Positions 39,151-60,260 of a stretch of 64,000 bases of DNA are shown here, piece after piece. The stretch is from Tricholoma matsutake. Lineage: Eukaryota > Basidiomycota > Agaricomycetes > Agaricales > Tricholomataceae. Position 1 is the first letter of the stretch. Every line of letters begins with the position of its first letter. The stretch is from the NCBI GenBank assembly GCA_026075535.2, contig AP026541.1:1612001-1676000 (forward strand). Direction: 5' to 3'. Position numbers and translations under genes: made by a program. The notes beneath the pieces are model-generated. The model ran no database searches and was not told the origin of the DNA. It worked only from the letters and a program-made list of their open reading frames with translations.

Positions 39151-39157
39151 TCACAGT

Positions 39158-40360: not shown

Positions 40361-40597
40361 GTATAAATGGACTTATCATTGGGTGACTTTCCATAAGGTT
40401 TTAGTCTTTAGAATAGATTATGTGAGAGATCCATGTTTCCGATTGTTTGATGGCCACTTTAATCCGATAATCTATTGCCAATCTATTGCATCAATTAAAC
40501 CAGAAGATATCCAATATAAATATTATTAAGGCATGACAGGGGTATGAAAAATGCATGGCAGGGGTAACCGTATGGCCATATTTTGAGAATGTTATTA

Positions 40598-42163
40598 CTA
40601 ACTACCTAGCAAGAGTTTTACTTGTGCTAGTGGGCCATCGCACTGCATGGCATATCCGAGTTCTTTCGAGAAGCGCATATTATTCTGAGCGCACATACAG
40701 ACCCATGATTGCATTTTCCTGAGGAATACCGTGCCCTCATAGACAAGTGACTGACCAGTCAGTAATCCATCGTGATACCAGACCATCCCCAATTGAGCGA
40801 TGAAATGTGCTGTGAAATGTTCTGCTGCATAGTATATCAACCCTTGTAAGTGATATTTCTGTTGGACACCACCAGACGTGATGTCCAATTCCTCCAGAGT
40901 AGAAGGGTCTTCATGGAGTTTGATTGTGATGAGAGGGGGATGCAGGAGGGCAGAGCAAGAGCCTTGGGGCTCAGGCTGGGGGTCAGCAATGATAGTGGGG
41001 TTCGAGCTCATTGACACTTCAACATCTTTTGATGTACACAACTGTTCCTCATCCAGGGGCTCCATCTGTGTTGCAGCTGTTCTCCGTTCAGTCCTGTGCA
41101 TAGCCTAGGTGCTCACTACTAGGCAATAGCACTGGTAGGGGTAACCAGCTTGTTTACAGGGTGTCTGGGGTGTGCTGGGGGGTTGAAACAGGCTGTGGGG
41201 GTGTTCTGATGGCTCTAGTACCATGTTCCATCATTTCAGAGCTGCAGCTGGTGGTCCAGGGTGGGGCAGAGCAGGGAGTTTGGTCATTGTTGACAAATAC
41301 ATTGACGATGACATGGCTGTCATGTTTGGTGGCTCGAGGTGCAGAACGGGGGACAGGGGTACAATCTGTGGGGTATCCTTAGTTTGGGTAGCTGTCTCAT
41401 AGGTACTGGGGGTCATCTGGGTACTGGAGTCAGCATACAACATTGTCTTCACAATTTCCATTGCACTGAGGTGTTCATCATAAGGTAGCTCTATTTGCAG
41501 GGCGGCACACCTACAATTGGGGGCAGCAGTGGTCTGTGTATCCATTTCATTGATCCCGGGGTTTGTCTGGATGTTAGTATTGGCTTGGGCTGGTAGTACT
41601 GCAAACTGGTCCATGTGCCTGGGCTGCCATCAATAGGCAGAGCCCAGGGCCATGTCCCTCTGTTAGCCATCTCTGGTGCTCATCTCCCTTTCCATCCTGT
41701 GTCCTGAGCCTGTAGCCTTCCAGGTGCCCCTTCCTCCATGCTTTCTCTTCTTTCTCCTGGCCTAGTTTCTCCCTTGCTTCATGACCCCTCCTTGTAGCCA
41801 TCTTCTTTTCCTTCTTTGTGCCCTGTTCTCCTCCCTGTTCTGTAAACCCTTCTTGGTATCCTTCTAGTTTTGCATCTTCTAGTAGTTGTTGTACTTCTCC
41901 ATGGCTAAACAATAGTGGTTGCAAGGTTTTGTCATTTGTTGATGATGTGGCTGTGTGTCAATGTGCATCTCATTGTTGGCATTGTTTGCGGCTGCATCTG
42001 CTGTGGTACTCAATGTAGTTGCTGTAAATTGTGTAGCCATGTGTGAGTTTGTGATTGTTGCTGTCTTGCTTGTGAGTGAGTCTGTGGTAGTGGTGTCATT
42101 GGGTGGTAATAGTGTTGATGTAGCTGTTCTTGCATTTGGAGGCACTGTGCTCGATGCCATCAT
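40598..42163 (-). pseudogene. transposon-associated protein of unknown function, about 480 codons
   Basis: Minus-strand blocks: a Thr-rich start (MMASSTVPPNARTATSTLLP), a charged Glu/Gly/Lys repeat region (KLEGYQEGF-like LEGYQEGFTEQGGEQGTKK), HQRWLTEGHGPGLCL, and after frameshifts a folded-looking C-terminal domain at 40598-40900 (YHLQGLIYYAAEHFTAHFIA, then VWYHDGLLTGQSLVYEG). That HFTA...WYHDG pattern is one I associate with proteins carried by large fungal DNA transposons; no function is assigned. The start codon lies 3 bp from a hAT-type end. Confidence 0.45.
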
Positions 42164-42660
42164 TATTAGTGTTTAAAGGTCCAGTTCAATGAACTGGAAA
42201 AAAGACTGCAACCCAACCAAACCCAACCAAATGCAACCAAACCATCGGTTGCGGTTGCTCAGTTTTGAGGGCAGTTGGGTTGCCAGTTGCCTCTATTTCA
42301 GAATATTTCAAAACCAGTTGCAACTGGTCTTCTTGCAGTGCTACATATCCTATACTAATGAAGTAAACCTATGTAATGTATTCGAAAAATACAACTAATA
42401 TAAACTATTTATACTTATATTACAGTATACAAAAGGGCAATGGGAACCCTGGGGGCAAAAAGTGCTCATTTTATGAGTGCTTATATACCCTGTGGTTGTG
42501 CACAGACCATTTGGTCATGCTTGCGCCCAGTAAAAGAAAGTGGCACCACTTGCCAAACAATTCCCATGACCACCAATAACCCACAACATCGCTTCCTCTC
42601 AACCTTCTACTCTCACCGCCAACAACACTCACACTGCCTACCTTGAAATCACCTCAATGA
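42159..42660 (+). mobile_element. second hAT-type end with subterminal repeats
   Basis: TAGTGTTTAAAGGTCCAGTT starts at 42167, followed by dense AACTGG/CAACC repeats. The preceding 8 bp, ATCATTAT, are the exact reverse complement of the 8 bp next to the end at 39635. Confidence 0.55.
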
Positions 42661-42669
42661 CTGCAAAGT

Positions 42670-42854
42670 GGGCCCAAATGACAAGGTAGTCATTGTTTGG
42701 GTCCCAGGTATGGTTTTTATCATTGATTTCTTTTTACTAACTAATACATTTTCTTCTTTTTAGGGTCACCCACCTGAGACCTGCCCCACTCTGCACTGAT
42801 GACAACAACAATGATGCAGCACCACCACCCCACCTGTGAGCCTCTGCTCACAGG
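42670..42854 (+). repeat. hairpin-intron-hairpin unit 1
   Basis: Palindrome A 42670-42705 (GGGCCCAAATGAC...GTCATTGTTTGGGTCCC); intron-like 42708-42763 with GTATGG donor, ACTAAC branch point and TTTTTAG acceptor; palindrome B 42833-42854 (CCTGTGAGC...GCTCACAGG). Confidence 0.7.
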
Positions 42855-42859
42855 GGGAG

Positions 42860-43459
42860 ATGGAGGTGTTGGCTTCATTGTGAACAACAAATGACCAGCA
42901 ATGAACAACGAACACCAATCATGAAGAGACATTTGAGCCCCTACCAGACCCTGTCATTGTACAATCACCCCCCACACATTTCAATTGGGCAGATTATGCC
43001 AAATCCATACCCATTATCTCTAAGTCGCCACCATGAGATCTTTCAGCACTATGTTCTAATATCCCCCAACCTTTTGACTCCATACAAAGGCAAACTCATT
43101 GTTGTAATTAAGTGAGGAACTCCCTGACCCACTCATTCACTCGACAAGGTTGGCTGGTGTGGACCACAGGTCCTATCATCACCCACAGGTATCCATTTGG
43201 ACTAGGCTCAGGCAAACCAACTGCATCTATTCCAAGTCCCATATGAACCCCTTCTGAAACTTGATTGGGATAGTGATCCTCATTTAGGAGAGCTGAGTAG
43301 AGTGCTTTGAGCTTTGGGATGGGCACCAACTTCTTGAGTTTTTCTTTACTTTATTTTGATATCAACCATAGTTCATTGTCTATATTATTGCTACTTATTG
43401 TTCTGTTTTTTCTCTTTCCTGTGGTGACAGGGACATTGCCTTTGTGGAGGTGGGCAGAT
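42860..43459. other. no supported gene
   Basis: Short ORFs only; nothing recognised between hairpin unit 1 and the two-hairpin repeat. Confidence 0.45.
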
Positions 43460-43598
43460 GGAGTAGGGCGTGGGGGCACCTACTCCAAGTAGTCATGTGA
43501 CCATGTAGTCAGTAGTCATGCATGTCTGTAGAGTCATGATCATCCTATCACTAGTGCATCCCACCACTCTGGTATAGGAGATGCATCCAGCATCTCCA
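43460..43598 (+). repeat. two-hairpin dispersed repeat, copy 2
   Basis: Direct copy of 39158-39272, with an extra 25 bp after the first hairpin. Both hairpins are intact. Confidence 0.75.
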
Positions 43599-43661
43599 AC
43601 AGCTCACCTTGTGGTTAGTTTCTTCAGTTCTACTTTGGTCCTAAGCACTAAGCACTGATGC

Positions 43662-44213
43662 ATGACCAGGAATGTTGCTGAGGATGACAGATCTGATGTA
43701 GAAGATCAATATGAAGATGACCTTTATCCAGATGGAGAGGCAGAAGATGATGACATTGGAAGTGATCCTGATGCAGAGGATGAGCTTGTTGAAGTGATCC
43801 CAGACTCAGTGTGGGACATGAATGATGCTAGATGGTGCTTACCAGGGTCTCTCTCATCTCCAATGCCAGGGCCAACACTACCTCAGGAAGCTCCTACAAG
43901 TTCAGTAGCACCACCCACATCAACTACAGACCCATCGGTATCAGATCCACACACAGATAGCCAAACAGACAACAAGCATGATCACTTCACAGGGCTGGTA
44001 ATGCACATTGGATGAAAACAAAGGGCCAGAGACTTGCAGGCCATCCTGGAAGTTTGTACTTGCAGCAGTGCTGTGACACACAAAGATATATTGAGAGCAC
44101 AGAGTGTCATTGAGTGTGGATGCAAGACCAGATGGGTGAGTGAAATGTTTTCTGTACAGTGGAACCACAGGGTTGATAGTGCATCCAGTACCACTTACAA
44201 TGAGTTGATCTAG
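43662..44213 (+). pseudogene. acidic transposon-type ORF with Cys-rich end
   Basis: 117 codons of Asp/Glu-rich then Pro/Ser/Thr-rich sequence, a TGA at 44013-44015, then the same frame continues to a TAG at 44211. The continuation has VCTCSSAVTHKDILRAQSVI and ECGCKTRW, a Cys pattern that could be the start of a zinc-binding (PHD-like) domain. I do not recognise a family. Confidence 0.35.
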
Positions 44214-45115
44214 AGTATGTCATCAATGGCTGGGCTGTGAAGCATGTGAGGCAAGCAGGAATAGTCAGAGACATGGTGGAAAGCAGTGGCAAGGATAATG
44301 TGATAATGGCAGTGATAAAATTTCCTTATATAGTAACTACTTCTCACACCTAGTTAGTTAGTTCATTGTAAAGGTGGGTTCCAAAGGTAAGGTGGGTTCC
44401 AAAGATAGGGAGCCTTTGCAGGCTATGGTCTCGAATTCGCAAACCACATTTGAAGTGGCACATTTGTAGCAACGGGGTTTGCTATTTAGCCAGGCCAAAG
44501 GGTGCAGCAGTGGTTGAAATGGCCAGTTATGAAGAAGATGGGATGGTGGGCATGATGGGGAGAGTGGGGAATGATGTGACCACATCATTGTTGGAAGGAT
44601 CATGGGATTGTTTTCAAACAGCACATGATTGAAACATACCATATATGGCAGGAGGGGGGAGGGGGGTCTGGCGAGCTGTGAAAAAAAAAAACTGATGTCA
44701 TATGAAAAATTCCCGTCCCACCACCCCCTTGCATGAGATGACACCATATTCAAAAAGTTATGCCACTGTGCTGGTGGTACAGTCAATTCATCAATTTGAA
44801 CACATCTCTGCTCAATATGTTGATTCTACATCAACCTTGCAACATCTATATTCTTCTGAGTCTATCATTGAATCTCATGTATTTTGCAGTGCTAGCTCAG
44901 CCCAATAGTTTAACAACATATCTAGTTAAAATTCTGTAGGAAGCTCCAATTTCACTGTCATAAGTTGCCAAATCTTACCAGCTTTAACATCAGGATGAAA
45001 TCAGGGCAAAATAGCATTCAGAAATATGTCCAGAGTGCAGTAAGCACTCCATAAATGATGAAACACATATTACATAATACTAATTAACATGATGAGATGT
45101 GTTCATTAGAGTCTG
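44214..45115. other. repeat debris; C-tract repeat copy 4 at 44645-44734
   Basis: G(6) and A(11) tracts, then AAATTCCCGTCCCACCACCC and CCTTG, recall the C-tract repeat with its first half inverted. The minus-strand ORF across it (44358-44786) has CYKCATSNVVCEF but spans the repeat, so I do not call a gene. Confidence 0.4.
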
Positions 45116-45415
45116 GTACATGTAAGGGGACAAGCCTCCCAGGTATATATGTTTCCCTACCTACTGTTCATACTCTATGGAAACCTCTCATTCATTCCTA
45201 TCTTACATATCTATTTGTTATTGTTTGGCTACAGCCTTATACCTGCCAGCTCACAGTAGTTACACTCTTAAATTGAACATCTAAGTATCTCCCCAGTATT
45301 ACTGCTTTATAGCTGTCATTACATAGTCTTTATAGACTCTTTGTGCCCTTTGTGGCCTCTTTGTGCCCTTGTCCACCCTATATCCTCTTCTTCTGGGTCT
45401 TTCTCTTACAGTACA
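45116..45415 (+). mobile_element. solo LTR, 290 bp, GTACA target duplication
   Basis: 45121-45410 begins TGTAAGGGGACAAGCC and ends TTTCTCTTACA (6-bp inverted termini TGTAAG/CTTACA), with perfect GTACA on both sides (45116-45120, 45411-45415). Inside, CTCTTTGTGCCCTTTGTGGC shows a short tandem repeat, and GGTATATATG at about 45142 is TATA-like. Orientation is assumed. Confidence 0.88.
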
Positions 45416-45900
45416 CGTCTATCTGAGATTATACATGTATTGTATTTGATGGATTTTCAATATCTTATCTGGATTGGCTTGGAGGCATCTCACTTGAAAC
45501 ACTGAACATGCACATTTCCATACCTTGGTAAGATATTGAAATTCTGCCAAATACAATACATGTACATAATATTTCTTAACACTTTTCTCCATATAAAGTT
45601 CTTGCTAAAATGTGTCATTCCTGCTGCACTATTTATCGCCATAAAATGCACATCTTTTGTAGATGGGAACTCTGATGTAGGCATTGGCACAGGTAACCCC
45701 TGGGTACCTGAGACTTGACCCATACCCCTACCCTCAAGTACCCACACCTGCTAACCCATGGGTTTTCACCAAGGGTCATGGGGGGTACAGGTATTACAAG
45801 TGGGTACAGTCATTTCCATAGCTAAGATCATAGATTCCTAAACTACAATATAATATGGTACCAGCCATCTTCAAGTTCTGGCTCCTCATCCCCTTCAACC
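45416..45900. other. probable 3' side and end region of the hAT element
   Basis: At 45690-45800 there are repeated GGGTACC, TACCC and CTCAAGTACCC motifs with CAGGTAACCCCTGGGTACCT, resembling hAT termini; similar motifs recur at 51853-51905. The other end of the element was not found. Confidence 0.4.
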
Positions 45901-48854
45901 TCATCTAGCACACCAACTGCAAGAACATCTGAGTCCTAACAAACTCCATGATCCTAAACAAATCAATGCCCGAGTTGATTGTGCCGAGAGCCGACTGTGA
46001 ACATGAGATAAAATTAGACAGCCATGGCTGAAAATATGCTTGACATCAACAGAAGTGGCTAATGAGGCATTAGTCTGAGAAAAAAATATGAAGTAACTGT
46101 ACTTACCAGGAATTGTCAGATAATCCAAAGCCATACATGACAAATGAGGATACATCGCACGCCATTCAGACCACCACAACAAAACATCATCCACCGCCTT
46201 GGAGTCCATGCTGAGATATTGTTCATACTCATCCCATAGTTCAGCACATGTGGGAGCACACAGTGATGCAAGATTATTGAACACATTTTTAGATTTTGTT
46301 GGCACTTGAGCATTGTAAGTCCTAGGAATAGAAGAGAAGACTCAAACCACATACCTCCTTTGGGGAAGGGGAAGGAGATTCCTCATTTTCACTACCACTG
46401 TCCTGCTTGTAAGATCGTTCAAATTCCTCATGCACCAATTCCCACGCAGTGTCAATCCAATCCTGTTCCCAATTAGCCTTCTCAAAATACTTCAACTTAT
46501 GATGGGGGTGTAGAACTGCATCCAGGGCGAGTTACATGTATCAATGCAAACCCACAACACACCCATAGCAATGTGATACACCTCTGAGGAATCAGTAAGC
46601 GAGTAATAACAGTTCAGTGTTCTTTTGCCAAGTCCAAGAGAAGCCTTGATAGCGGGGGAAAGAGCACAATTCTTTGAGTGAGCAATAAAGTGGTCATTGA
46701 TGTAGTCCATAGCAGGAATAACAGTGGCAAGGTTGGGTGTACCATGAGAGAAGAATTGAGTCACGTCCTTGAGAACCTGTAGTAATTGATGACAAAGTGA
46801 TCCATGGAATTGTGATGCTGTGACTCACTGAAAGTATGTTGCACAACTGTTGCGCAATAATCCACTCCATCTTGCTCAGCTCATACATTCAAAGGTCATT
46901 CACTCAATCTGCAGTTAGAACATCAATGGCCTTCCGATACTCAAGAGCAAACTTCAACATGTCATAAGTTGAGTTCCAGCGGGTTGTCACATCGTGTGGC
47001 ATGATTTGGTCACACATTTTGAGCTCCTTGAGATGTTTGTACCATGCAGGAAGGACAATCATTGTCAAGTTGATGATCTTGAAAGCAATTTTCCAAAGCT
47101 ATCAAAAGGTGAGTGTAGTTCTCTCAGTCAATTCTACAACTCACTTTAACCAAAACCAGTTTTACAGGGTGAATACTTTCCTCCAACCCTGTGCACAAGT
47201 AGCACCATCTCATTGATCCATCCCTCCATATCATCGTCCTCATCCTCCTCCCCTGCTTCATGCTGTCCATCAATTTGATGCTGGGCCATTGCCTAGATGG
47301 TCTGCTGTTCCTCAAGTTCCTGGTCACCAGCAAGACCTTGGAGCTTGTTGTCATCTCGCAGCTCATGCACAGCCTCATCTAGATGCTCATCCTCCTTTTT
47401 CTTTGGTACATCAAATTGTTTTATGATTGATTTTGTGCAGAGGTTAACAATGTGCAGGAAGCATCGAGTATGGTTGACCTGGGAGAAGTCAGGAAGTATC
47501 TTGGCAAGCTTGGAGATCATGACATTGTTACAGGATGCGTTATCGCAGGTGATACTCAGGATCTGCTTGAAGGTAAGTCATTTCCCTCTGCCAAACAACA
47601 GTGATACTAACTTTGTGTGCTATTCTGAAATCTTCTAGGATGTTTGTGAACACTATCACAAGGTTTAGGCCAGAATGCGACTAGAGCACAGGGTTATAAG
47701 CAGCTGGTGCAAACATCAAGTTTTATGTACCTGTGCAACCTCGATAACATCTAACATGAGGGTGAGTGGCACACCATCCTTCTTGAGATGGACTGTGATG
47801 GCAATGAATGCTCAATGGTTGGGAGAGGTCCATGCATCTGTGGAAGAGTTGAGATCCCCATCATATTCCTGTGGGATGGTTAGTGTTCATCTTGTTATAT
47901 CATAGTTAGCCTTGCTTACATGTAGCATCTTAGGAATCCATTGGCAGGTACATGCAAAGACCAAACAAACATCATGAGAAACTGTTGAGGGGGAAGGTAT
48001 GTAGTATTCAGGTCATCCCATCTTTATTAACGACTGAAATACCTGGTCTTTGACAATTACAAAGGGATGCACATTTTCCAATACCCATCGAATGATTTCT
48101 GCTCTGTCAAAAAAAACTTCCAAGGTCATCAAAGGATCTCTGTTAACTGATCACGTACTTGGTCTGAGTTTTTGTATGTTGTTGGTGTGAGTATGTAACC
48201 TTCCCTTTGCCAACCCATTCAAATATAGCTGTGATTAATGCATCTTTCCCCAGTGGTTTTACTACTGAGTCCCATGCTTCTGATACATCCTTGGTTTGGT
48301 CTGCAGCCTTGACAGCCTCAGTTCCCCAACAGCTCTTTGCATGCTTTTGTAAGTTGCTCATGGATTTTGCATCTGACTTATCTAAGTAATGGTGTACTTA
48401 CTTTTTACAGCCCTTGGCAGCACATAAAAATCCATGGAAGTGATGGCCCTTAGAATGCATAAATTGGTGCATTCCAGTCCTTTTTTAGTTGTTCTGTTGA
48501 TGCTGATGTTAGTATTCTCCTGCTTCCAGATCAAGAGGAGCATGATATACCTAACTCAGCCTCTGCATCTTCCTCGGTACCATCCTCTGATTTCTCATTG
48601 TCGTCATCACCATCAATGTCAATCACCTCAGGCTGTCTCGGATCATGTGAGTTTGTGTTACAATTACCATTGTCCGACTCTTCAGCTGATGACAGTGACA
48701 GTGTATCTCCATCAGGTGCTTTCTTTTTTTTCTTCTTTGCTAGAACAGCTTTAATAAGCTTTGAGGCTTTGCGTTTGAGAGTTCCCTTTAGGGACTTGAG
48801 GGATGACTTTGATGACTTCACTGATGCATCTGATTTGCGTGAGTTCTCTGGCAT
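45901..48854 (-). pseudogene. hAT-superfamily transposase, near full length, decayed
   Basis: From the ATG at 48854: a Lys/Ser-rich and acidic leader, a BED-type zinc finger (FLCAAKGCKK, then NLQKHAKSC), the linker GKGKVTYSHQQHTKTQTK (48190), DLNSSTDAWTSPNH followed by AFIAITVHLKKDG (47840; first catalytic Asp), ITCDNASCNNVMISKLAKIL (47540; second Asp), NHTRCFLHIVNLCTKSI, FFSHGTPNLATVIPAMDYI, SPAIKASLGLGKRTLNCYYS (46640), and the C-terminal dimerisation region ILSHVHSRLSAQSTRALICL (45960). Introns, frameshifts and stops separate these blocks; one stop replaces the expected Arg in SPNHRAF (CGA to TGA). Confidence 0.88.
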
Positions 48855-49030
48855 GGTGATTCAGAAGGTTGACAGGTGTCAAGATGTTGGGTTGATATTC
48901 CCCTTTTTGTGATTGCTGTGTGGTGATATAACTGTACAGTTCTGATGCTTATGGAGTTGGCCATGATGTATCATGTAGATTATGTGTTTATTATTACATT
49001 ATATGTACATACATGGGTATATGCCAGTAC

Positions 49031-49388
49031 TTTACACTCCCCCCCCCCCCCAGTCCGAGCAGACTCCGCTTGGACACACTCAGACACTTGGACTCTGCTC
49101 AGACTCTGCTCGGACACTTGGACTGTCCTAGGACTGTCCAAGTTGTCTGAGTAAAGTCTGAGGACTGCACTCGGACTGCACTCAGACTTTGCTTGGACAA
49201 CATCAATTGTGCATTTATTTACACCTTCTAAAGTACTGTCCAAGTAAAGTCTGAGTTCCAGTCTTAGAGAAAGTCTTATAAGTCTCACAAAATGATGTGT
49301 GCACAGCAGGAATTGAACCAACAGCCTTTTGGACTAGCAATCACATGACGACAAAACATGCACATGCTACCACTGAAGCCAAGTAGTC
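49031..49388 (-). mobile_element. tRNA-headed SINE with CGGACTC body, copy 1
   Basis: Element sense is minus. Head: A-box-like TGGCTTCAGTGGTAGCATG (about 49363-49381) and B-box-like GGTTCAATTCCTG (about 49309-49321). Body 49045-49260 of degenerate units such as GAGTCCGAGTG and CGGACTC. It ends in G(14) and AGTGTAAAG. Compare copies 2-4. Confidence 0.7.
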
Positions 49389-49439
49389 ATTTAAAGTTGC
49401 ATACATTATATCTATTTATTACTGAAATCTAATTTTTAT

Positions 49440-49716
49440 ATATCATGAATAGATTATTAAATTGACCCCCTCGCATCTGTGTGAGGGGTAATTAATATGG
49501 GTAATTAATATGTATAATACTAAGCCCTCCCCTCGCAAGCTCAAGGGGAGGGGGCCGTAACTATCAATTATAAAAATAAATTAAAAACACCCACCACGAG
49601 CAGTTGCTTGTGGTGGCATTCGTCTCTCCCCAGGTTGTCCCCTGGCCGTCTCGCTCTCCTGTCCCCATTCTTCTCCCCCCCAAACCACCCCACAAGCAGA
49701 TGCTCGTAGGCATGGG
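49440..49716. repeat. GC-rich palindromes, B-type modules
   Basis: CCCCTC...GAGGGG (49468-49490), CCCTCCCCT...AGGGGAGGG (49526-49553), then B palindromes at 49591-49616 (CCACCACGAGCAGTTGCTTG) and about 49685-49717, separated by AT-rich spacers. Confidence 0.65.
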
Positions 49717-50500
49717 GCAGGTGTCATCGTGGGTGTCCCCACTCTCGTCATCATCTCCCTTCCCTGTTAAGGGCAAAGCCTCAACCACTCGATCTAGTTG
49801 CTGTCGTTCGACGAGGTGCTTCCTTGATGAGTCATTCAGCACTAGTCTTACTCAGAGCGTCCGATGTAAGATGGGTAGTGCACTCTAGCAGGGCTTCTGC
49901 GTAGAGTTGTTCAGGTTCATGCACTAAGGGGCTTCCTTAGTGGTTTCGAGTAAGTTCACGAGTTGCAAGTTAAGGCTGTTAATTGCCTAGATCTAAACTA
50001 AGGACATCCCTACTACGAGTTGCAGTACTTATACTACAAGGGAGGTCCTTATCGTCCAATCGGAAAGGTAGATGCGTATCAAGTAAGAATAGAAACAATA
50101 AGCCTCATGCAAGGCATGAGGCGTCCGATGTCATGGAGTGCTGCAGCGCAGCATGTCAGGGAACAATAAGAGATAAGCTTCATGCCTAGCATGAGGCGTC
50201 CAATGTCATGGACCTCATGTCAAGAAGCTGTCATATCACAGCATGTGTGGGAGTGGGTTCTGGTGCATGGAGTCACCATGCGTCAAGGGTGCCTTCCACG
50301 GGAAGGGGATCAAATGCATGCAGTTGGCATGCGTCATATGTGTGTCTGGTGTCAAGGACATGCCCTAGGCATGAGTCATGGAGTGCCTCCTGTCTGGAGG
50401 GGATTGTCAGGTCGGTTGGGCTGGTCGGGTTCCATGAGTTACAAGGAAAATTGTAACATTCCCTCTCATCTCCTTCCCCCTCGTCTCTTCCCCCTCACCT
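49717..50500. other. repetitive, no gene; CATGAGGCGTC units
   Basis: Between 50105 and 50350 a loose repeat with CATGAGGCGTCC(G/A)ATGTCATGGA and GGCATG(C/A)GTCAT recurs four to five times. ORFs follow the repeat and are not supported. Confidence 0.45.
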
Positions 50501-50502
50501 TC

Positions 50503-50668
50503 CACCCTGTGAGCAGGGGCTTGCAGCAGTGGTGGTGGTGGTGTTGTCATCGTTGTTGTCGCCAGTAGTAGTTTGTACCTATAAAAAGTTAGTTAGGATC
50601 GAAAAATGAAATGAGAAAAGAAAAAAAAACTTACCTAGGACCCAAGAGATGTTGACGTCTCTTGGGTC
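50503..50668 (-). repeat. hairpin-intron-hairpin unit 2
   Basis: Element sense minus: palindrome A 50668-50639 (GACCCAAGAGACG...CATCTCTTGGGTC), intron-like 50634-50579 (GTAAGT, CTAAC, TATAG), palindrome B 50535-50503. Confidence 0.7.
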
Positions 50669-50697
50669 TCCCCTAATTGTGGTCGTTCCACCCGTCG

Positions 50698-51036
50698 TCC
50701 ACCCTATGAGCAGTGGCTCATACGGCTGGGGCGGGTGCTGTTGTCATTCCCTGCCATCGTTGTCATTCCACCCACCATCCACCCCATGAGCAGTTGCTTG
50801 TGAGGCTGGAGGCGGGTGGTGTGTCCTGGGTGGTGGGCATGAGTAGCCGTTCTTGTCATTTCAAAGTTGCACCCATTCCCACCCCGTGAGCAGCTGCTCG
50901 CAGCAGTGGTTCTGAGTGCTCATCATCGTCGTTGTCAGCAGTACTAGATAATACCTAAAAAAGTTCATTAGTAACAAAAACAAGAAAAAAAAACTTACCA
51001 ACGGCCCAAGAGACGTCAAATGATGTCTCTTGGGCC
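50698..51036 (-). repeat. hairpin-intron-hairpin unit 3 with three B palindromes
   Basis: Palindrome A 51036-51003 (GGCCCAAGAGACATCA...), intron-like 50998-50955 (GTAAGT...TTTTTTAG, 44 nt), then B palindromes at about 50910-50878, 50815-50779 and 50730-50698. Confidence 0.7.
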
Positions 51037-51196
51037 TTTTCTTTGTTTGCTTTGCCTTCCTTTCATTGTTTCCTGCTCGTCCCCTTGTCATTCCATCTCC
51101 CAGTCCCAGTCATCTCCAGTCACCTCATTGTGTTGTTGTTCTGTTTGGCCAAGTCGGTGTCGCCATTGTCTTGCCATTTTGCAGTTGTACCTGTTC

Positions 51197-51405
51197 CCAC
51201 CCCGCAAGCAGTTGCTTGCAGCGGTGGTTCTGGGTCCTAGGGTGGTGGCTGTGTCAGCCGTTGTTGTGGTTTTGAGGCTGCGGCATCGTTATAACATAGA
51301 TAAAACCTATCATTAAGGAAATTTCAGTTAGTTAAACAAAACAACAAAAATCATGTAAAAAAACACTTACAAGTGAGCCCAAATGACAATGCCATCGTTT
51401 GGGCT
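51197..51405 (-). repeat. hairpin-intron-hairpin unit 4
   Basis: Palindrome A 51405-51376 (AGCCCAAACGATG...GTCATTTGGGCT), intron-like 51370-51307 (GTAAGT, ACTAAC, GATAG, 64 nt), palindrome B 51229-51197 (GCAAGCAACTGCTTGC). Confidence 0.7.
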
Positions 51406-51534
51406 TGTTCCCATTGTTGGTTATTGGGGTAGGAGGTAAGGAGGAGGCAGTGCCATTGCCAGCGTTGTTGATGACATGGCTGTGTTGATTTGTCATCACA
51501 GCCAGGGTGGTACATAGAGAGATATAACTACTTA

Positions 51535-51830
51535 TCTGTAATGATGCTTTAGTCTAACTGTTATATTGCTGACTTAATTGTACTTTATCATGTGACTATG
51601 AGGGTTCAATCCCTGCAGTAGCCACAGATTTTTCAGTCAATTATATAAGCAACTCAGACAGTCCTAGGACTGTACGAGTGCTGGTCCACTCGGACTCCAC
51701 TCGGACAGTCCGAGGACTCAGCTCAGACTCCGCTCGGACTGGATATTTAGTTTGGCAGGACTTTCAGCCAAAGAAGTCCGAGTGTCTGAGCGGAGTCCGC
51801 TCGGATTGGGGGGGGGGGAGTGTAAAGACC
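51535..51830 (+). mobile_element. tRNA-headed SINE, copy 2
   Basis: B box GGGTTCAATCCCTG at 51602-51615 with a weak A-box region near 51545; body 51655-51800 of CGGACTC-type units; G(12) and AGTGTAAAGACCTCAT at the end. It is inverted relative to copy 1, which is why the outer ends look like terminal inverted repeats. Confidence 0.7.
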
Positions 51831-53155
51831 TCATATATGCAAGGGCCAGGGGTATCTGGAATTATACCTGTACCCTTGCCCCCAACCCTCAAGGGTACTG
51901 TGAACCCATGCTTATGCCTACTCTGATGTTGAAGTTTAAAGTTGGCAGGGATTGCCCACCACCACATAAAGCATCTGGCCCCCTTTTGCATGGTCTGTGT
52001 TTTGGTGCTAGGGGCTAGCAGTTGCTGAAACACAGACAGTTTATATGCAGCTAGGGGGTCCCTGTTTTGCTTTCCTTCTGCTCCCATCTTGTTGACAAGC
52101 AACACAGGTAAGTGCACCATGCTTTTTCATGGATCAGTTTCTTACATTCTCAGTAGTTGATTATCTAAGGCCCACCTTAAGGATATCATCTACTCACATC
52201 ATAAGAGCTCCCACCATATCTAGAATAATCATTTTAACTAGGTTCTCACTTTACAGGACTCACTGGTACAATCTTATAGCTGTTGCTATTGTACCCAGTT
52301 GAATCTTAACAAGTAAGCAGTGTTCCCACCATTTCCTATCTGATTTGATTTCTCACATGGCCACATCTACTAGATTGATTCCAGATTAATCTACTCATCT
52401 CATTGTTTATCAATTTTTGTGCACCTCACCTTCTATGGAACATAACAGAGTTATGTACATTTGTACACTCCCTTGCATGGCCACTCCCTTGCCTATAAAA
52501 TTTTGGAATCTGTCTAGGTGGACTCTATTTTCTGCTAAACTATCTCAACTTGAGCATGCAGCAGAGGTCCCCCAGCAAGGCTGTTAAGAAAATTCAACAT
52601 GATATGCTTAAATTTTTTTCTGACACCCCCTTGACAAGGATGTGATTTTTTCCTGATATTGATTTCTGTCATAACTCAGATCAGAGAGAACAAATCATTG
52701 CCAACAATGTCAAGAAGTTGATCAATGAATCCCTTTTCCTGCAAGGACCACCTGATGCCCAAGTAAGTTTCCCTTTCATGGCTGAGCAGCCCCACCAATG
52801 CTTTCCAACTTGCACTGTGAGGGCCACTGCTTTGCACAACATGTCCAAGTTCTTTAAGGGGAGGAGGAATATAAATCTGAATCCTTGCAAGTGTTTTGGC
52901 CCAGGGATCATGATTGGCAACAGTGATTACTTGCAGAATTGACTGACCACATGGTTCATGCTGCACTCTCCTACACTGGAAGCTCTGTCAGTAACAATGA
53001 CTGCAAGCACCCATCTTCACATACCCTAGTTTGCCAATGTCAAAGAGCTTGAAGTCAATGTTGTAGGTGGGCTTTGGGCACAAGGAAATGTTCAAGCAAC
53101 AATGGCCTTGCCAAACTTTGTTGCAGTATCCTTCCAGCTCACACATCTTTGAATC
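51831..53155. other. no supported gene
   Basis: 51853-51905 has hAT-end-like TACCC/GGGTA motifs. CTGTGTTT...AAACACAG flanks 51995-52037. Other ORFs are short and unrecognised. Confidence 0.4.
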
Positions 53156-53893
53156 TTGATCGACCTTGGGGAGCACACCATGAGGGTGCACCAACATCCT
53201 CCACCTCCCCAACTTATTGAATCTTCTTATATGCACTGTTGGTGTCCCATGCAATGTAGAACCTCAGGCAAGTATCATCATCAAGGCACCCAAGTTAAAG
53301 CAGCACATTTCATGCTCACTAACACCCACACCATCACATTTCATGAAGGTGTACTCCCTTCCACTATCAAGCATGTGGCAATCTCCACTCCTCATTCTTT
53401 GATAATGCAAGTTGATGTCCCAACACTCTTGCAGGGATCAGGTCCTTGTTCTATTTGCCATGATTTCATCATCCACCTGCCACACATGAAGGAGGCTATA
53501 TTGCAGTCCATGGCCTGCTGCACAAACATCTATACAGACAACAGTGTATTGGCATATACTCAAAAACCTCATCATTGCATTTGAAATTCTAATAGTGGAC
53601 TTCCTCAGACACATAGAGATGCCCACAGTCAAAGTGATATGGCTAATTTATCTGGAGTGGCTGCTCTGGTTACTGTCAAGACTCAAGACCACTGCAACCA
53701 TCTTACCCATCATTCTTGCAGACAACTGTTACATATGTACTACAGTGGTAACTCTGATGACTCCAACAATGACAGTGACAATGAATCTAGCCAGTATGAT
53801 TCTGTTGATGATTACCATGCTGGGTCAGATGGTAGTCATGGTGGTTACATATCTGCAGATCACACACCACAGCATGATGCAATGCTTGTGTGA
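53156..53893 (+). pseudogene. unrecognised ORF, 245 codons with one TGA
   Basis: A single frame from 53156 to 53893 is broken only by a TGA at 53582-53584. The first half has a Cys/His content (MHCWCPMQC, CSICHDFIIHLPH) and the last 50 codons are Asp/Ser/Asn-rich (SGNSDDSNNDSDNESSQYDS). The start is uncertain. No known family seen; probably TE-derived given the surroundings. Confidence 0.3.
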
Positions 53894-53957
53894 ACCCTTG
53901 TCCTTTCCTATAAGGAAGAAAGAAAAAACAATAGCCTACCATATCTCTCACTGTTAG

Positions 53958-54027
53958 GCTTAGGGCCCAAACATAGGCATGTCTTTTAACACATTTTTAG
54001 AAAGGACTGGACATTATCTACAAGATT
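53958..54027 (+). repeat. dispersed repeat also at 59846-59923
   Basis: ACATTTTTAGAAAGGAC(T/C)(G/A)GAC and ATTATCTACA, with upstream CATAGGCA and CTTTTAAC, occur in both places. Confidence 0.6.
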
Positions 54028-54033
54028 ACTACA

Positions 54034-54085
54034 GTTGTGGACAAACAAACACAACAATTTTTGGTGACTGAATTTTGTAAGCTGG
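54034..54085 (+). repeat. Tc1-type end CAGTTGTGGACAAAC, copy 2
   Basis: Begins after a TA and matches 34815-34865 for about 50 bp (TTGGTGA(A)CTGAATTTTG). Confidence 0.6.
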
Positions 54086-54107
54086 CACAAACATCCAGAT
54101 CAATGAG

Positions 54108-54486
54108 GTCTTTACTGCCCCCCATATATTCTGCATGGACTGCATGGACTCCGTGTGGACTCTGCACAGACTATCTCGGACTGGCACCCACTCATTTGGC
54201 TCAAATGTCCTGTATAGCAGTTGCTCGGACTCCTAGAGAGTCCGCATGGACTTTCATGGAGTCCAAGCTATTTTTCGACTTTACTCTGAGTGCGCATGGA
54301 TTTTGTCTGAGCAACATCAATTTACTCGGACTTGGACAGATACATGTCTGAGTCAAGTCCATGGATGCATAGCAGAGGCTCAGTTGACTACAGAAAAATT
54401 ATGTACTAAAGTAGAATTGAACCCAAAGCCTTGTCACCAAGTGTAAATAGCAGCAATTAACCACTACACCACAGAGCCATTATCAG
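54108..54486 (-). mobile_element. tRNA-headed SINE, copy 3
   Basis: Element sense minus: A-box-like ATGGCTCTGTGGTGTAGTGG (about 54479-54460), B-box GGGTTCAATTCTAC (about 54426-54412), body of GAGTCCATG and CGGACT units to about 54130, then GGGGGGCAGTAAAGACCTCAT. GCAACATCAATT inside the body is shared with copy 1. Confidence 0.7.
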
Positions 54487-54701
54487 TATGTGCAAACAAT
54501 TGCATTATCTAACCATAATTATTTGAATCACATGACTCATGTGCAAGTTCAAGACATGTCAACAATCATTGTTGATGTTGACCACCATCACCACTCTCGA
54601 CACCACTGCCTCCCACCTCCCTCTACCACCACCACTGCCCAGTCAGCCCCCTCCTCTGATGCCTCTTGCACCAACAGCAACACAAACAGCATGGAACAAA
54701 T

Positions 54702-54734
54702 GGGCCCAAATGACATCCAACGTTGTTTGGGCCC
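54702..54734 (+). repeat. A-type palindrome without usable intron donor
   Basis: GGGCCCAAATGACATCC...TTTGGGCCC, followed by a T tract and TTTTCTTAG but no GT at the usual place; a decayed unit. Confidence 0.55.
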
Positions 54735-54828
54735 CTCTTTTTTTTACCTTTCTTTATTTTATGAACTATTTTCTTAGCAAACTAACTGAGCTGATGCAAT
54801 GGGCCCAAATGAGCCGAGCCTACACAAT

Positions 54829-55037
54829 GGGCCAAAACAATAATAATCGTTGTTTTGGCCCCAAGTAAGTCTTTTTTTTTTTACTTTTCTTCCATTGTTT
54901 TATCAACTCATTAACTATTTTCTTTCTTTTTTTTTTAGGTTAACAATGATTTCTAAACCCTGAAATGGCATGCCATACACCCAGCCACCCAACACTCCCA
55001 TCCCCATGGCTGCAAGCACCTGCTTGCAGCGTGGATG
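54829..55037 (+). repeat. hairpin-intron-hairpin unit 5
   Basis: Palindrome A 54829-54862 (GGGCCAAAACAA...TTGTTTTGGCCCC), intron-like 54865-54938 (GTAAGT, TTAAC, T(10)AG, 74 nt), palindrome B about 55011-55037 (CTGCAAGCACCTGCTTGCAG). A second intron-like stretch lies at 55142-55205 (GTAAGT...TTTAG). Confidence 0.7.
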
Positions 55038-55199
55038 TGCCTACCTCAATAGAACATGCAGGGATGCAGGGGGATGCCAGGAGGCCCATGAAGTGGGGTA
55101 CCCATAAGGTATGCACCCGATCCCTTGACACAATGGCCAAAGTAAGTTTTTTTCTTTCTTTTTTGTTTCTATAAAACTACTAATTATATTTCCATTATT

Positions 55200-56593
55200 A
55201 TTTAGACTAGCGCTTTAAAGTCTGGTTCAGTCTGGTTTTTCGCCCTTGCAAGCCAAGCCCGTGGACCAAACCGGTTTTACATTTTTCATAATACTACAAA
55301 ACTGTGACCAAAACTGTGATAAACCATTTATCAGCGGTTCGACCATGGTTTATGAACCAGTTCTGACCAGTGATAAACCGGACCCAGTCCTAACCAGTGC
55401 AGCACTGGTCAGGACCAGTTATGGGACCAGTGCTACCTACTAACTACATCATAACATCTGTATTGTATGTATGTAGTTAAGAAAGAATAAAAATTATCCA
55501 CCCCACGAAGCTCGTGGGGCTGGGTGTAGGTGATGGTAGTCGTCCATCATCCATTCGTTATCCCAGTAATCGTTGGTCGTCCCCCATGGTTGTTGTTGGT
55601 CATCCCCTGTCGATCGTCGTCGTCCCCCCCCAGCTTGCACCTGCAATCCATCCCACGAGCAGTGGCTCGTGGGTCTGGGGATGGGTGCTGGCCATTCAGT
55701 GTGTGGTGCCATTTGGTGTTATCGTCGGGCCTTGGTGCTTGTCAATGTTGTCATCGTATGGCCCTGGTGATCCCCAGTGTCATCAGAGGCTGATTAGCAC
55801 CTGTGATCCACCCTGCGAGCAGTTGCTCACAGGCATGGGGGCGGGTGCTGGGTCATCCATCATGGGAATCCAGTGGTGCTGGTAGGCCATGTTGTTGTTG
55901 TTGTCAATTGCATGCACTCACGATCCATCCTATGAGCAGTGGCTTGCAGGCATGGGGTGGGTGTGTTGTTGGTTCTGGGTGTTCATAGGTGTTGGGGGGG
56001 GTTAGTGACGTGGCGCAGGTGGAGCGGTCTGGTGTTGCTTACCAGGTGCATACTGCAATATTGCTCGATACTAGTTCGGAACTCATCGACAATGTTCCAG
56101 GTGTATGTCCTGAGCTGTACAAAGGTCGGGGGAATTGTATTATGGCGGCCGAAGGCATACAAAGAATTTCGAGGTGTTGTGAAGAATTTCAAAGCATTCT
56201 CGTGACTTTGTAGAGGTTCGTAGAGCTTTGGAGGGGTTCATATGGGCTCATAGAGCTTCGACAACAATTGTAGATGTGTTTTCTGAGCTTGAATGACAAG
56301 GTGGTGGAGGTGAGACAAGGGAGGGAGGGAACATCATCGAGGGTGGTGGTGGTAGGATCAGTGTGTGTGAGAAAATAATGCAAACAATCACCTACCTTGG
56401 CAACCAGCAACATGATCTGGAACTGCAGTTCCAATCGGTGTTAACTGGTTTTGGACGGTCTAGAGCCATCACACGATCTGCCAAAACTGCAACTGCAAGG
56501 TCTCGAACATTTGAAAACCGTAACTGAAAGTTCAGTCCAGTTTGCGGTTATTTTGCGGTCCTATGCACTGGACCTTAAAGTGCTAATTTAGAC
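55200..56593. mobile_element. non-autonomous hAT element with 8-bp target duplication
   Basis: 55208-56585 (1378 bp) has inverted ends TAGCGCTTTAAAGTCTGG and TAGCACTTTAAGGTCCAG, flanked by perfect ATTTAGAC (55200-55207, 56586-56593), the 8-bp duplication diagnostic of hAT. Both subterminal regions are packed with GGTC/ACCAGT/AACTGG repeats. The interior carries four B palindromes (about 55499, 55647, 55808, 55926) and no transposase. Confidence 0.92.
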
Positions 56594-56960
56594 TCCATTT
56601 TAGTAGTAATGATGGACACCAATGTGACATGACCCACATATGCCACACCACTGGCCCCCAGCCTCATGAGCGACTGCTCGTGGGGTGGATCGCAGGTGGA
56701 ACAATGATGACAATGACTGAGGGGGATGGGGGTGCCACCACCACCACCACCACCACCACCACCACCACCACTGCTGCAAGCCCCTGCTCACCGAGTGGAT
56801 GGGCAAGGGTGAGGGGACAAGGAGGGGAGGGGAGGGGGAAAGGGAGGGCACAATGCATGGTGAGGGGATGACAGGGCAATATCCACCACCACCACCACCA
56901 CCACCACTGCAGGGACAATGACGACACAGACAACAAACCAAAACAACAACATCAATGCGA
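56594..56960. repeat. ACC triplet tracts and B palindromes
   Basis: (ACC)n at 56732-56770 and 56883-56910 with B palindromes at about 56659-56690 and 56770-56797. ORFs here are triplet artefacts. Confidence 0.6.
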
Positions 56961-56987
56961 CGAGAAGGGAAGCTGAACGAAAAAAAG

Positions 56988-57370
56988 GCCCAAGAGACAT
57001 CATTGATGTCTCTTGGGCCAGGTATTTTTTTCTTTTTTCTTTTTTATGAACAAACTTTTTTAGATACCAATTTGAACTATAGACAATGAGAGGGGACAAG
57101 GAAGATAACAAGAGGGGGGGAGCTGATGAGCACCACCTGCCTCCAGCCTCACGAGCAACTGCTCATGGGGTGGATGGTGGGTGGAACAACAATGAGAAGA
57201 TGGCCAAAAAATGATGACAGGATGCCCATGGCACCACACCCCTCTGCTATGAGCAACTGCTTGTAGGGAGGAAGGGGGTGCATACAGACCAATGGGGGAC
57301 AAGAGGGGGACAAGAGGGGGCCACAAGAGAGGGCCAACGATGAACGCACCCACCCCATGCCTACGAGCAT
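56988..57370 (+). repeat. hairpin-intron-hairpin unit 6 with three B palindromes
   Basis: Palindrome A 56988-57020 (GGCCCAAGAGACATCATTGA...), intron-like 57023-57063 (GTATTT...TTTTTTAG, 41 nt), B palindromes at about 57142-57172, 57240-57268 and 57354-57385. Confidence 0.7.
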
Positions 57371-57459
57371 CTGCTCATAGGGTGGTTTGTGGGTGCAGCC
57401 CCTGCCATCTCACATGCTAGCGAGATGGTGGGATATTTTATTTTATTCTATACTCTACT

Positions 57460-57540
57460 GCCCCCCTCTTCAGCAGGGGGGCAACTTTTTTTGTATTTAA
57501 TACTACCAATAAAATGTCCCCCATTGTGGGGGCATCCTTG
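57460..57540. repeat. two GC-rich palindromes at the end of the hairpin cluster
   Basis: GCCCCCCTCTTCAGCAGGGG (57461-57484) and GTCCCCCATTGTGGGGGC (57517-57534), in AT-rich spacers as at 49.5 kb. Confidence 0.6.
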
Positions 57541-57605
57541 TTTTTTTTTGATGTTGAAAATATTTTAAATAGTTAATAAATAACATAAAGTGTTTGTTTA
57601 TCATT

Positions 57606-57845
57606 GTCTGTATGGCAGAGTGGTTAATTTGCTGGGTGATAACATTGTTGTGACATTGAGGTTGAGAGTTCGAGGCTGCTCTTAGTACAAAACCTTTGTG
57701 CAGCTGTGGCCTTGAAAATTGCAAGTTGACAATTAATTACCTGGAATCTGTCTGTGCGAAATCTGTGTAGAGTCTGAGCTAGTCTGTGCAGACTCCTAGC
57801 TAGTCTGTGTGGAGTCCATGTGGAGTGCACAAGGACATGTGGGAT
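57606..57845 (+). mobile_element. tRNA-headed SINE, copy 4 (3' truncated)
   Basis: A box TGGCAGAGTGGTTAATT at 57613-57629, B box GAGAGTTCGAGGC at 57664-57676, then body units TAGTCTGTGCAGACTCC and GTGTGGAGTCC at 57735-57840. The G tract is absent. Confidence 0.65.
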
Positions 57846-60260
57846 CAATCACAAACCATCTAAACATATAGAATAAAGTGTAATGAGGATACTTCTATGA
57901 GCAGATTTCCCTATTTGAAAAATTTGGGTTAGGTACCTCAAAAATTTGGCCACCCTCTGAGAAATTAGTAAAATCATGAGAAATAGTGCAATTAACTCAT
58001 TTTGGTTAGCTGCATCTAATCCTGTGATAAAATTGAGGTTACATCAAATTGATCACCCATAATAAAATGAAAAAAACTTCACCAAAAAGGGGAACACCAA
58101 GTAACCTATGGAATCAATTTTTTCCATCTTCCTAGGTTTGTCATTGCTTCTGGAAGTGCCTAGATATTTGTCAAGGGATTATAAAGGAGTAAGATAACCT
58201 GTCATAACTGTTGCATGCTTTAAAATAATCACATGACATTGATGCAATACAATATGTATGTAGCTGAGTAGTTGAAAGTCCAAACTTCAGAAGTGTGTAG
58301 TAACATAGGTGACCACAGTTGGACTAATAATAAATACACTTTGTGGGTAGCCAAACCACTGGCAAGGGGAGACAACATGATGTAACAACACATACATTGA
58401 GTTGGAAATAAGCTAAAAATAGCTGAATGAAAAGAAAGACTCTTGATGAGGGCAGCAGAAAACAGGTAAAGCACAAATGTAGAAAGAACAATAAACAATC
58501 ATAGCAGTACATATTTGAGGCATCAATGAGAGATCAGAGAATAATCATTAAATAGCAGGATGTGAGAATTTGATGGCATTCAGGTGGCTCAGCATTCAAT
58601 ATTCAGGTGTTGGTAGCCTTGCCATTCCAACAGTGCATTGTTCATGCAGTGATTGTACTCAACATGTATAAGATAGAAACCTAAAAATAGCAGGCCATGG
58701 CTAACAAATTTCACCAGCTACACAATAAACACTGCAATATTAATTTACAAGGGTTACATTCCATTATTTTGAGCATAGGACAACTTCAAAACATTTTCAT
58801 GTAATTATGACAGGCTGTTGAACTTGAAACCAAGCTTCAAGTTGAATGTTGATCTCACTGTTCATGGAAGGAACCAATTCTGTGACTCAAAAAGCTGCCA
58901 AAAGGAGTGATTACATAAACAGGGTTCCATCAATTACACATTGATCAAGTTAGGGATTCAACTATTTTTGCTATTCAAATCCCTTAAAAGGGGTGCAAAA
59001 TGTTGCGAAATTTTATTTAAAAAATTTGGCCGCCCTATGGTGCCAATCACTTACACACCACTACATATGTACAACTGCCAATTTGGGTGGCCCCCTGCCC
59101 CCCCCCAAAAAAACTGTAACTTTAAAACTTAAAGGAGAATATGCTGAAAGCACGGGAATCTGTACAGTTGTGAACAATCTGGTGATGGAAGCATCAGATG
59201 TTTCAGTGGATGGATGCTTACAGAGCAGGTATGGGAATGACAGATGCCCAGAAACAGGTGAAGAAATTTAGTTCCACAAAGTACAAGTCACATCGGCATG
59301 TTCCTGAGATGGTGGCTTGTACTTTTGACCAGTAATAATTGGATTTTGTGGTTCACACCATAGTTCATTGCAAAACCATCATATCTCTTCCAGTTTATGT
59401 CATATCAGGATTCTGTCAATACAACCTCTTCAAAACACATATAAGAGTGTTTATACAAGAGGAATAAGAACTACCCTTTTTTTTGCAAGTTGTAGAGGCA
59501 GAAATGTAACCACCTGCCAAATTCAAGTCTGCTCAAGAAATTTTCTCACTCAGTTTTGAAGCTAATAAGAAATCCTTAATAAAATATCTTTTTATCACTA
59601 AAAGGAGTGTTTCTACAAGATGAATAAGAGAATGGCTGTTTTTTGGAGGACCAGAAAAGTTTGTACAAAGGTAGCAAGCAGTGTGTAAGTGATGGGCAAC
59701 ATAAAATGTCATGGGAAAAACTTTGGGAATAGGTTTTTTGACCAGCTGGATCTGAATGTGAAGTCAATTTGTCCCAGAAAAATCCTGATCACAAGATATC
59801 AAAAATGCCATGTTTACTTGTCCACAACTATACATTAAATAACATGTTGTGCTTAGGTTATGAACATAGGCACATCTTTTAACACATTTTTAGAAAGGAC
59901 CAGACATTATCTACATATTAAAAAACATGTTGTTTGTGTGGTGTCAAACTCAGTGGCAATTGCCCTGCAGCATTGCGTAAACATTTTTTTTGCGTGGCAA
60001 TTGCTGCAATGTTAGCAAAGGCAAGCACATGCAAGCATTGATGTCTCGCATAAGTATCAGCAAACACCACAACATTGGTGCAAACATATTCCCATGCATC
60101 CCCAAGTTGAGGGATAAACCTCATTCTCAATACTGAGAACTCAAAAAACAGGCTCACTCAGAAAACTTTGGACACAATGCAATTTTTGACCTTCTCAAGC
60201 ATTTTTACTATAACAGAAGTCAAATTGCGTCTGTTGGATTATATAATCTGTCACTGCTTA
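57846..60260. other. no intact gene; Tc1-type ends near 59163 and 59830
   Basis: TA then CAGTTGTGAACAATCTGG at 59165 and an inverted GTCCACAACTA at 59820-59830 could bound a small element related to 34815 and 54034. A minus-strand ORF at 59918-60157 has protein-like sequence (IPQLGDAWEYVCTNVVVFAD) but no recognised family. Confidence 0.35.

Follow-up and report, generated by a model that had tools for sequence, protein, structure and literature searches.

What kind of repeat places a palindrome directly in front of an apparent intron, several times over, in a mushroom genome? The question is raised by a stretch of Tricholoma matsutake DNA, 64,000 nucleotides (nt) of contig AP026541.1 in GenBank assembly GCA_026075535.2 (positions 1,612,001 to 1,676,000), which is called the window below (G000:C4:1612001-1676000 in our numbering). 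A sequence-only reading of the window had proposed six units, at 42670, 50668, 51036, 51405, 54829, and 56988, each with a palindrome, here hairpin A, followed by an intron-like stretch and then by copies of a second palindrome, hairpin B. All six are present (Table 1). Our answer, to which we would give an even chance, is that the units belong to a leader cassette, non-coding and probably spliced, that is exchanged among nonautonomous DNA transposons of T. matsutake. The motif exists in well over a thousand copies, and many of those examined lie in at least 2 unrelated kinds of non-coding transposon, which points to a shared non-coding cassette of unproven role. From the presumed 5′ end, its anatomy is one to five modules, each with an exon that has hairpin A at its end, a spacer of mostly 4 to 5 nt, and an intron of about 57 nt, and then B, and then a third hairpin, C, near the 3′ terminus.

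The A motif is not local, as genome-wide pattern searches make plain. The sequence searched has 161,040,721 bases in 13 contigs, the length given for TMA_r1.0 in the available text of PMC10627285. The pattern TTGGGC-N5-GTAAGTTTTTT, joining the hairpin edge to the donor, has 1,652 matches (815 + 837), and its reversed control has 0. With spacings of 0-4 the same pattern finds 258 (125 + 133; N4 in 96 of 100 among the matches listed) and with spacings of 6-10 it finds 17 (11 + 6; 14 at 6 and 3 at 8), the reversed controls being 0 in both cases. The A palindrome pattern itself matches 1265 times forward and 1250 times in reverse, with controls of 0/0. By hand count, the first 100 of the matches listed fall in 61 distinct places, which suggests about 1,500 A sites in the genome.

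The preferred spacing from hairpin A to donor is also seen with a finder that looks for the hairpin only. It was run on the window and the fetched loci, 189,639 bases including overlapping loci, many of which had been fetched for holding A. Among its 50 distinct sites, 41 have a donor, a pyrimidine-rich stretch, and an AG on one strand, 0 have them on both strands, and 9 on neither. Reading the rows puts the donor 5 nt after GGGC in 37 of the 41 (34 scored there, and 3 scored at offset 1 that also have GTAAGT at 5), with the remaining 4 at 3, 6, 6, and 7 nt. Eight of the 9 donor-less sites have the hexamer with its GT read as AT, 7 of them at 5 nt and one at 9, leaving only the site at 54704 without a donor. 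The intron had been described as starting 2-5 nt past the hairpin; that it follows directly holds up, but the spacing is mostly fixed at 5 nt.

Intron signals were parsed in 93 units, of which 87 came from a finder requiring a 5-nt spacer, so the spacing statistics rest on the hairpin-only finder and the genome pattern counts. The donor is GTAAGT in 52 and GTGAGT in 7 (GTRAGT in 59), the branch-site motif CTAAC is present in 77, and the acceptor is TAG or CAG in 83 and AAG in 7, with 3 lacking a parse. The predicted introns have a median length of 57 nt and a T content of 77% from +7 to +26. We infer from these signals that the introns are spliced. Folded as RNA, the six window units give z-scores between -1.3 and -7.1, strongest for the 56988 unit, and Rfam gives 0 matches at the gathering score for window 39000-59000. 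Over the 93 units, the G of the donor pairs with the upstream exon with a mean probability of 0.51, vs 0.39 with shuffled upstream letters; with each of 26 spacer classes counted once, the figures are 0.40 vs 0.33. In 36 of the 93 best folds, both donor letters are unpaired. Sequestration of the donor by an extended stem was tried as a constant feature and rejected, the pairing being common in some classes (CCTAT, CTTAT).

Many of the A units are carried by DNA transposons with 8-bp target duplications. Two carriers of A arrays, L018 and L029, have common ends CAGTACTTTACAGTCCCCC and GAGGTCTTTACACTCCCCC and 8-bp duplications, and L030 has ends of the CAGTACTTTACAGTCCCCC/GAGGTCTTTACACTCCCCC type with no clear duplication. 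These ends number 347 + 353 (as CAGTACTTTACASTCCCCC) and 464 + 477 in the genome. For a set chosen regardless of hairpins, ends were paired by eye on contig C1 and 20 of the 42 short pairs were fetched, none of them from the four pairs under 1.1 kilobases (kb). Each of these 20 end-picked elements contains one or more A hairpins followed, 5 nt on, by a donor-like hexamer. The GT is intact at least once in 17 of them, whereas all listed units of L049, L055, and L057 have AT donors; two hairpins listed for L050 and L053 appear spurious and are excluded from the counts. Target duplications match at 7 or 8 of 8 bases in 18 of the 20 (8/8 in 14), while L055 (4/8) and L057 (3/8) have no matching duplication. 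The hairpins of this set lie about 0.5-1.7 kb inside the element ends. In the 20 elements together with two hAT-like ones that were fetched for holding A, 34 of 40 sense predicted introns have a hairpin with at least 10 of 12 paired arm positions no more than 8 nt before the donor, or 31 of 36 in the end-picked elements alone. The antisense strand of those 22 elements has 1 predicted intron, itself with 11/12 paired positions, and random positions pass the same hairpin criterion in 12 of 220 cases. Among 42 A units that do not belong to the end-picked set, a GAGGTC-type end (no more than 1 mismatch in 11 positions) is present within 1.4 kb upstream of 18, vs 5 of 42 downstream; host ends could be assigned for about half of the units outside that set.

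By length of open reading frame (ORF), these elements have no coding signal, and we class them as nonautonomous. The longest ORFs of 24 elements average 104 amino acids in sense, 109 with the predicted introns removed, 115 in antisense, and 83 when shuffled. Three longer end pairs were also fetched. L046 carries B hairpins and is split by a gypsy-type retrotransposon, L047 holds two A units, and L045, 6.27 kb long with flanks TTTAAAGT/TTTAAAGC, encodes CxC5 (PF18718, 1.8e-30), with a CxC6 match of 26.9 bits that is just below the cut-off of 27.5. The CxC5 ORF matches 496 database proteins at E <= 0.001. When 24 elements were compared with L045, the matches listed include, for 20 of them, an alignment that reaches its first base, 49-271 bp long and 77-100% identical. 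The KDZ catalytic domain PF18758 was not detected in the six L045 ORFs scanned, so we use the term KDZ-associated for the family and do not place it in KDZ itself. Nor does the duplication length discriminate KDZ, since hAT elements also make 8-bp target duplications. A search of the genome for PF18758 gave 165 matches, of which just the best candidates were scored; many of the matches are broken by internal stops, and comparing the first 100 of the matches listed with the element ends on C1 by eye gave no association. As far as the accessible part of PMC12730594 goes, duplications measure 8 bp in Zisupton and in one Dileera family, and those of Kyakuja 7 bp. A viral_contigs scan gave 4 matches, by eye none with the hairpin. 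The description of a structured repeat with intron signals in transposons thus stands, but an unknown origin or unknown transposon is not supported, since many units are in nonautonomous elements with 8-bp duplications whose ends are shared with a CxC5 element or are hAT-like. Three other features were seen in this family: a 10-bp palindrome, GCCATCCTGT-GCTG-ACAGGATGGC, at about 1346-1369 of L045, in an intron-like stretch just before a T-tract and AG; a low-complexity frame rich in Asn/Asp at L045 1500-2400, upstream of the CxC5 domain; and, near the CAGTAC end of oriented L059 (about 2119-2750), repeats at a spacing of about 22 bp, seen as an alignment ladder.

The second kind of carrier is hAT-like. 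L014 is 1,774 bp long with TAGGCAATAGCA ends and duplication AACTCAGG, its TAGGCA end type matching the window hAT element 45678-51920, and L016 is 1.1 kb long with looser TAGGGCAC ends and duplication ATACCCAT. Across 162 columns the L014 module is 82% identical to the window 50668 unit; the alignment starts 2 nt ahead of hairpin A and extends about 170 nt beyond it, where hairpin B is reached. A tandem pair of L030 modules matches L016 in register, with 81% identity across 228 columns. Tandem module copies are about 150 bp apart. Of 17 A-to-A alignments counted by hand, 10 begin at -16 to +1 of the hairpin outer edge, including all five with L014, and 7 begin at -20 to -350. L013 (600-1978) and L027 (636-2064) have a third kind of end, TAGTGTTTTAAGG, with duplications of 7/8; there is no known transposase for these ends here. 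As judged by such alignments, module homology extends across two kinds of end, KDZ-associated and hAT-like, not three. A motif TATATACCC...CACAGACCA is found in L014, in L027, and near 42481, not in most elements scanned.

Hairpin B is still more numerous. The window has 18 cores, at 39,871-57,376, vs 0.98 per block-of-two shuffle, so the B array is real, with 18 cores where about 19 had been counted. The loop is AGNN or NNCT in 18 of 18. Genome-wide, the B pattern has 7010 + 6952 = 13,962 strand matches, symmetric AGCT loops being counted twice, and a control of 0; the stricter core GAGCANNTGCTC has 5891 matches vs 32. In the 20 end-picked elements, the loop is NNCT on the A-sense strand in 71 of 73 cores (7 of the 71 being symmetric AGCT) and reverse in 2, and one of the 73 is upstream of the first A. 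A reading of AGNN as an Rnt1-type tetraloop was dropped, AGNN falling on the strand opposite the sense of A.

It had also been proposed that the arms of the hairpins vary yet still pair, as compensatory change would give. In 60 distinct 31-nt hairpins A, the paired share of cells is 93.5% (89.8 when shuffled) and the covariation score reaches 0.246 (0.165 when shuffled), a level that can arise from relatedness of the copies, and there are 46 both-side-changed cells (shuffled 22); every slid version scores lower, and pairs with a change on both sides show no excess, at 6 vs 5.6. In 79 distinct hairpins A, the signal comes from pair 13 (50 paired vs 34.6 expected) and from pairs 7-8, where the ACGAC subfamily differs from the GAGAC one. 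Modules of both subfamilies occur mixed in the window element 49025-51832. The proposal therefore holds between subfamilies (AAACGAC/GTCGTTT vs AAGAGAC/GTCTCTT), but the CpG-bearing pairs vary near-independently. RNA wobble in A, with the sense taken from the intron, was considered as a mark of RNA selection and rejected: G.T outnumbers A.C by 70 to 38 at pairs 8, 9, 11, and 12, and the columns alone predict 74 vs 43. Modules with the CTTAT spacer (e.g., L029, L056, L063, L064, L066) have the hairpin A loop GATCT, the reverse complement of the usual AGATC, in 9 of 9, between similar flanks, so the palindrome was inverted in place, a DNA-level event; the reversed loop is also in 2 of 20 CCTAC modules. 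The picture is one of constraint or symmetric copying while the elements were active, and mostly neutral CpG decay since.

If the cassette is a leader, transcription would begin from the GAGGTC end, or its hAT counterpart, and splicing would follow. In the emerging transcript, hairpin A would fold immediately ahead of the U1 site and keep the exon end from competing structure, the transcripts would splice efficiently through hairpin A, and modules would spread between elements via recombination or template switching. In Cryptococcus, also a basidiomycete, stalled spliceosomes can trigger production of small interfering RNA, to go by the available part of PMC6643885, and clean splicing would accordingly be rewarded. 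By inference from Cryptococcus, a transposon might benefit by escaping the RNA interference (RNAi) that stalled spliceosomes set off. The most far-reaching form of the idea is that a non-coding RNA cassette moves among unrelated transposon superfamilies, that its exonic hairpins, phased at 4-5 nt to the 5′ splice site, influence U1 recognition in cis, and that clean splicing escapes spliceosome-coupled RNAi, making the cassette a non-coding counterpart of the TET/JBP anti-silencing genes; as a whole we hold this to be decidedly unlikely.

Several observations weigh against a spliced, shared leader. The fixed spacing could come from common descent. AT-type donors, mostly CCTAC/ATAAGT with the slash at the exon-intron border, make up 20 of the 93 (in L049, L055, L057, L030, and other loci). 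The CpG-bearing pairs 9, 11, and 12 of A form Watson-Crick pairs about as often as their columns predict (56/53.7, 50/43.0, and 43/42.8), and this near-independence leaves no clear sign of RNA-level selection in present copies. In the first 100 of the 7010 forward matches of B, the inner pairs are likewise at 64/60.3 and 53/51.3, with the outer ones at 80/51.3 and 94/50.5, and there is no excess of G.T over A.C (49 vs 60). The A modules of L013 and L027 have 7- and 6-nt spacers, and the L013 module has no A-to-A alignment to another family at the cut-off, L027 being outside this comparison, so the kinship of these two rests on anatomy. L051, L052, L053, and the window element are absent from the L045-start aligners among the matches listed, sharing the 19-base end. 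Because no clear selection is visible in existing copies, a strong rival is that the modules are passive relics of the 5′ leader of an old transposase gene, copied as filler, with palindromes kept by template switching between arms at the DNA level and no current role. We regard this as quite plausible, if short of probable. The near-independent CpG decay of the arms in A and B is what it would give, as is the CpG across the donor, which in three spacer classes reads T/G in 22, C/A in 15, C/G in 5, and T/A in 1; the AT donors match the expected decay of a CpG spanning the border. The in-place inversion in CTTAT modules fits as well, and the first intron of L045, GTAAGTTTTTTTTG, is similar. Drift alone, however, would hardly give the tight genome-wide spacing, or homologous modules in elements with unrelated ends.

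A role in DNA, with A and B as dyad sites for a transposase or host factor or as cruciform sites and the intron linked only by descent, would make sense of the strong symmetry, of the 13,962 B matches, and of G.T not being favored over A.C. Transposase sites are expected at element termini, whereas these hairpins are well inside, and the orientation and phase of hairpin A relative to a splice donor are constant; we consider such a role rather unlikely. That the hairpin and intron are themselves a mobile introner-like unit, making introns at new sites, is very unlikely in our judgment: 10 of the 17 alignments do begin near the hairpin edge, and there are close tandem copies, but by eye there is no target duplication around the module itself, which is mostly exonic or flanks an ordinary intron, and the introners of PMC9860276, in its available text, insert into genes. 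Fragments of one ordinary coding gene, one of the outcomes the sequence-only reading had itself named as refuting, can hardly be credited. The predicted introns do look like normal short fungal introns, but hairpin lengths of 28-34 nt do not hold one frame, and in the 24 elements sense ORFs are no longer than antisense ones. Helitrons make no target duplication and have a 3′ hairpin and then CTRR; they were set aside as the source given the 8-bp duplications, with CTRR beside hairpin A checked by eye only.

Table 1. Hairpins, predicted introns, and transposons of the window (positions in the 64,000-nt stretch)
Feature	Position	Strand	Remarks
Hairpin A unit 1, ATGAC class	42672..42702	+	About 505 bp inside hAT3-type terminus at 42167 (TAGTGTTTTAAGG kind; other end not found)
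Predicted intron of unit 1, 56 nt, GTATGG...CTAAC...TAG	42708..42763	+	5 nt past hairpin; from sequence
Hairpin A, GAGAC class	50640..50667	-	Predicted intron 50579-50634
Hairpin A, GAGAC class	51004..51035	-	Predicted intron 50955-50998
Hairpin A, ACGAC class, 6-nt spacer	51377..51404	-	Predicted intron 51307-51370
Hairpin A, AACAA class	54829..54861	+	Predicted intron 54865-54938; host element begins at 54105 (GAGGTCTTTACTGCCCCCC), no right end found
Hairpin A, GAGAC class	56988..57018	+	Predicted intron 57022-57063 by first AG; intron parser picked a longer one
Orphan hairpin A, no splice donor	54704..54732	+	Hairpin-only finder
Host element of three units	49025..51832	-	Ends CAGTACTTTACACTCCCCC / GAGGTCTTTACACTCCCCC; flanks GTATATGC / ATATATGC, 7/8 match
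B hairpins of 49025-51832 element	49598..51217; cores 49598, 49694, 50511, 50708, 50788, 50888, 51206	-	NNCT on A-sense strand; 50888 symmetric AGCT
B hairpins, NNCT on +	55014..57376; cores 55014, 56668, 56778, 57153, 57251, 57365	+	
C-type hairpin CCCTCCCC...GGGGAGGG	49525..49552	-	AT-rich 3′ part of 49025-51832 element
hAT element	45678..51920	-	8-bp duplication CTCTGATG; hAT dimerisation domain PF05699 (5e-9) at about 46108-46230
hAT3-type nonautonomous element, three B hairpins	55208..56585		Duplication ATTTAGAC; nested in intron-like stretch of 54105 element

The hAT element has its apparent start codon at about 48857, and the host element of three units is nested between that point and the right end of the hAT element. 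Within window 55140-56594, the bases ATTTAGAC duplicated around the hAT3-type element include a TTTAG acceptor. Elsewhere in the window, at 20075-20107 and 25445-25477, a hairpin TCACCTCAGTC...GACTGAGGTGA is in a 213-bp repeat with two copies, 95% identical.

Nonautonomous transposons, hAT-like and KDZ-associated elements, and cargo common to transposon lineages are already known; hAT elements of Marasmius oreades, for one, are the subject of PMC9674265. The elements here are like nonautonomous KDZ-associated (CxC5/CxC6) derivatives in sharing termini with the CxC5-coding L045 and in having 8-bp duplications as described for Zisupton and Dileera in the accessible portion of PMC12730594; unlike them, the interior is hairpin-intron modules with no coding signal. 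They are like hAT-like elements of the miniature inverted-repeat kind in their 8-bp duplications and terminal inverted repeats (TAGGCA.., TAGGGC.., TAGTGTTTTAAGG..), but the cassette in L014 and L016 has its homologue in a family whose ends are unrelated. As the available text of PMC9860276 presents them, introners are also repeated intron-like units spread by transposons; in the present elements, by contrast, the intron lies within what is presumed to be the transcript of the transposon itself, and the hairpin is part of an exon. The TET/JBP genes, captured by many fungal transposon lineages according to the same portion of PMC12730594, are likewise one cargo in unrelated superfamilies; that cargo is an enzyme gene, and here it is a non-coding cassette. 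In the open-access literature searched, no description of a shared non-coding hairpin-intron cassette was found.

The T. matsutake genome has 13 telomere-to-telomere sequences and 25.4% unclassified repeats, by the part of PMC10211490 available. Since repeat annotation leaves that much unclassified, non-coding modules common to unrelated transposons may pass unrecognized. If the phasing of hairpin to donor is functional, the elements would be a natural library of well over a thousand hairpin variants beside a splice donor, for relating exon structure to use by U1, and they could show whether transposons adapt their introns to RNAi surveillance in mushrooms.

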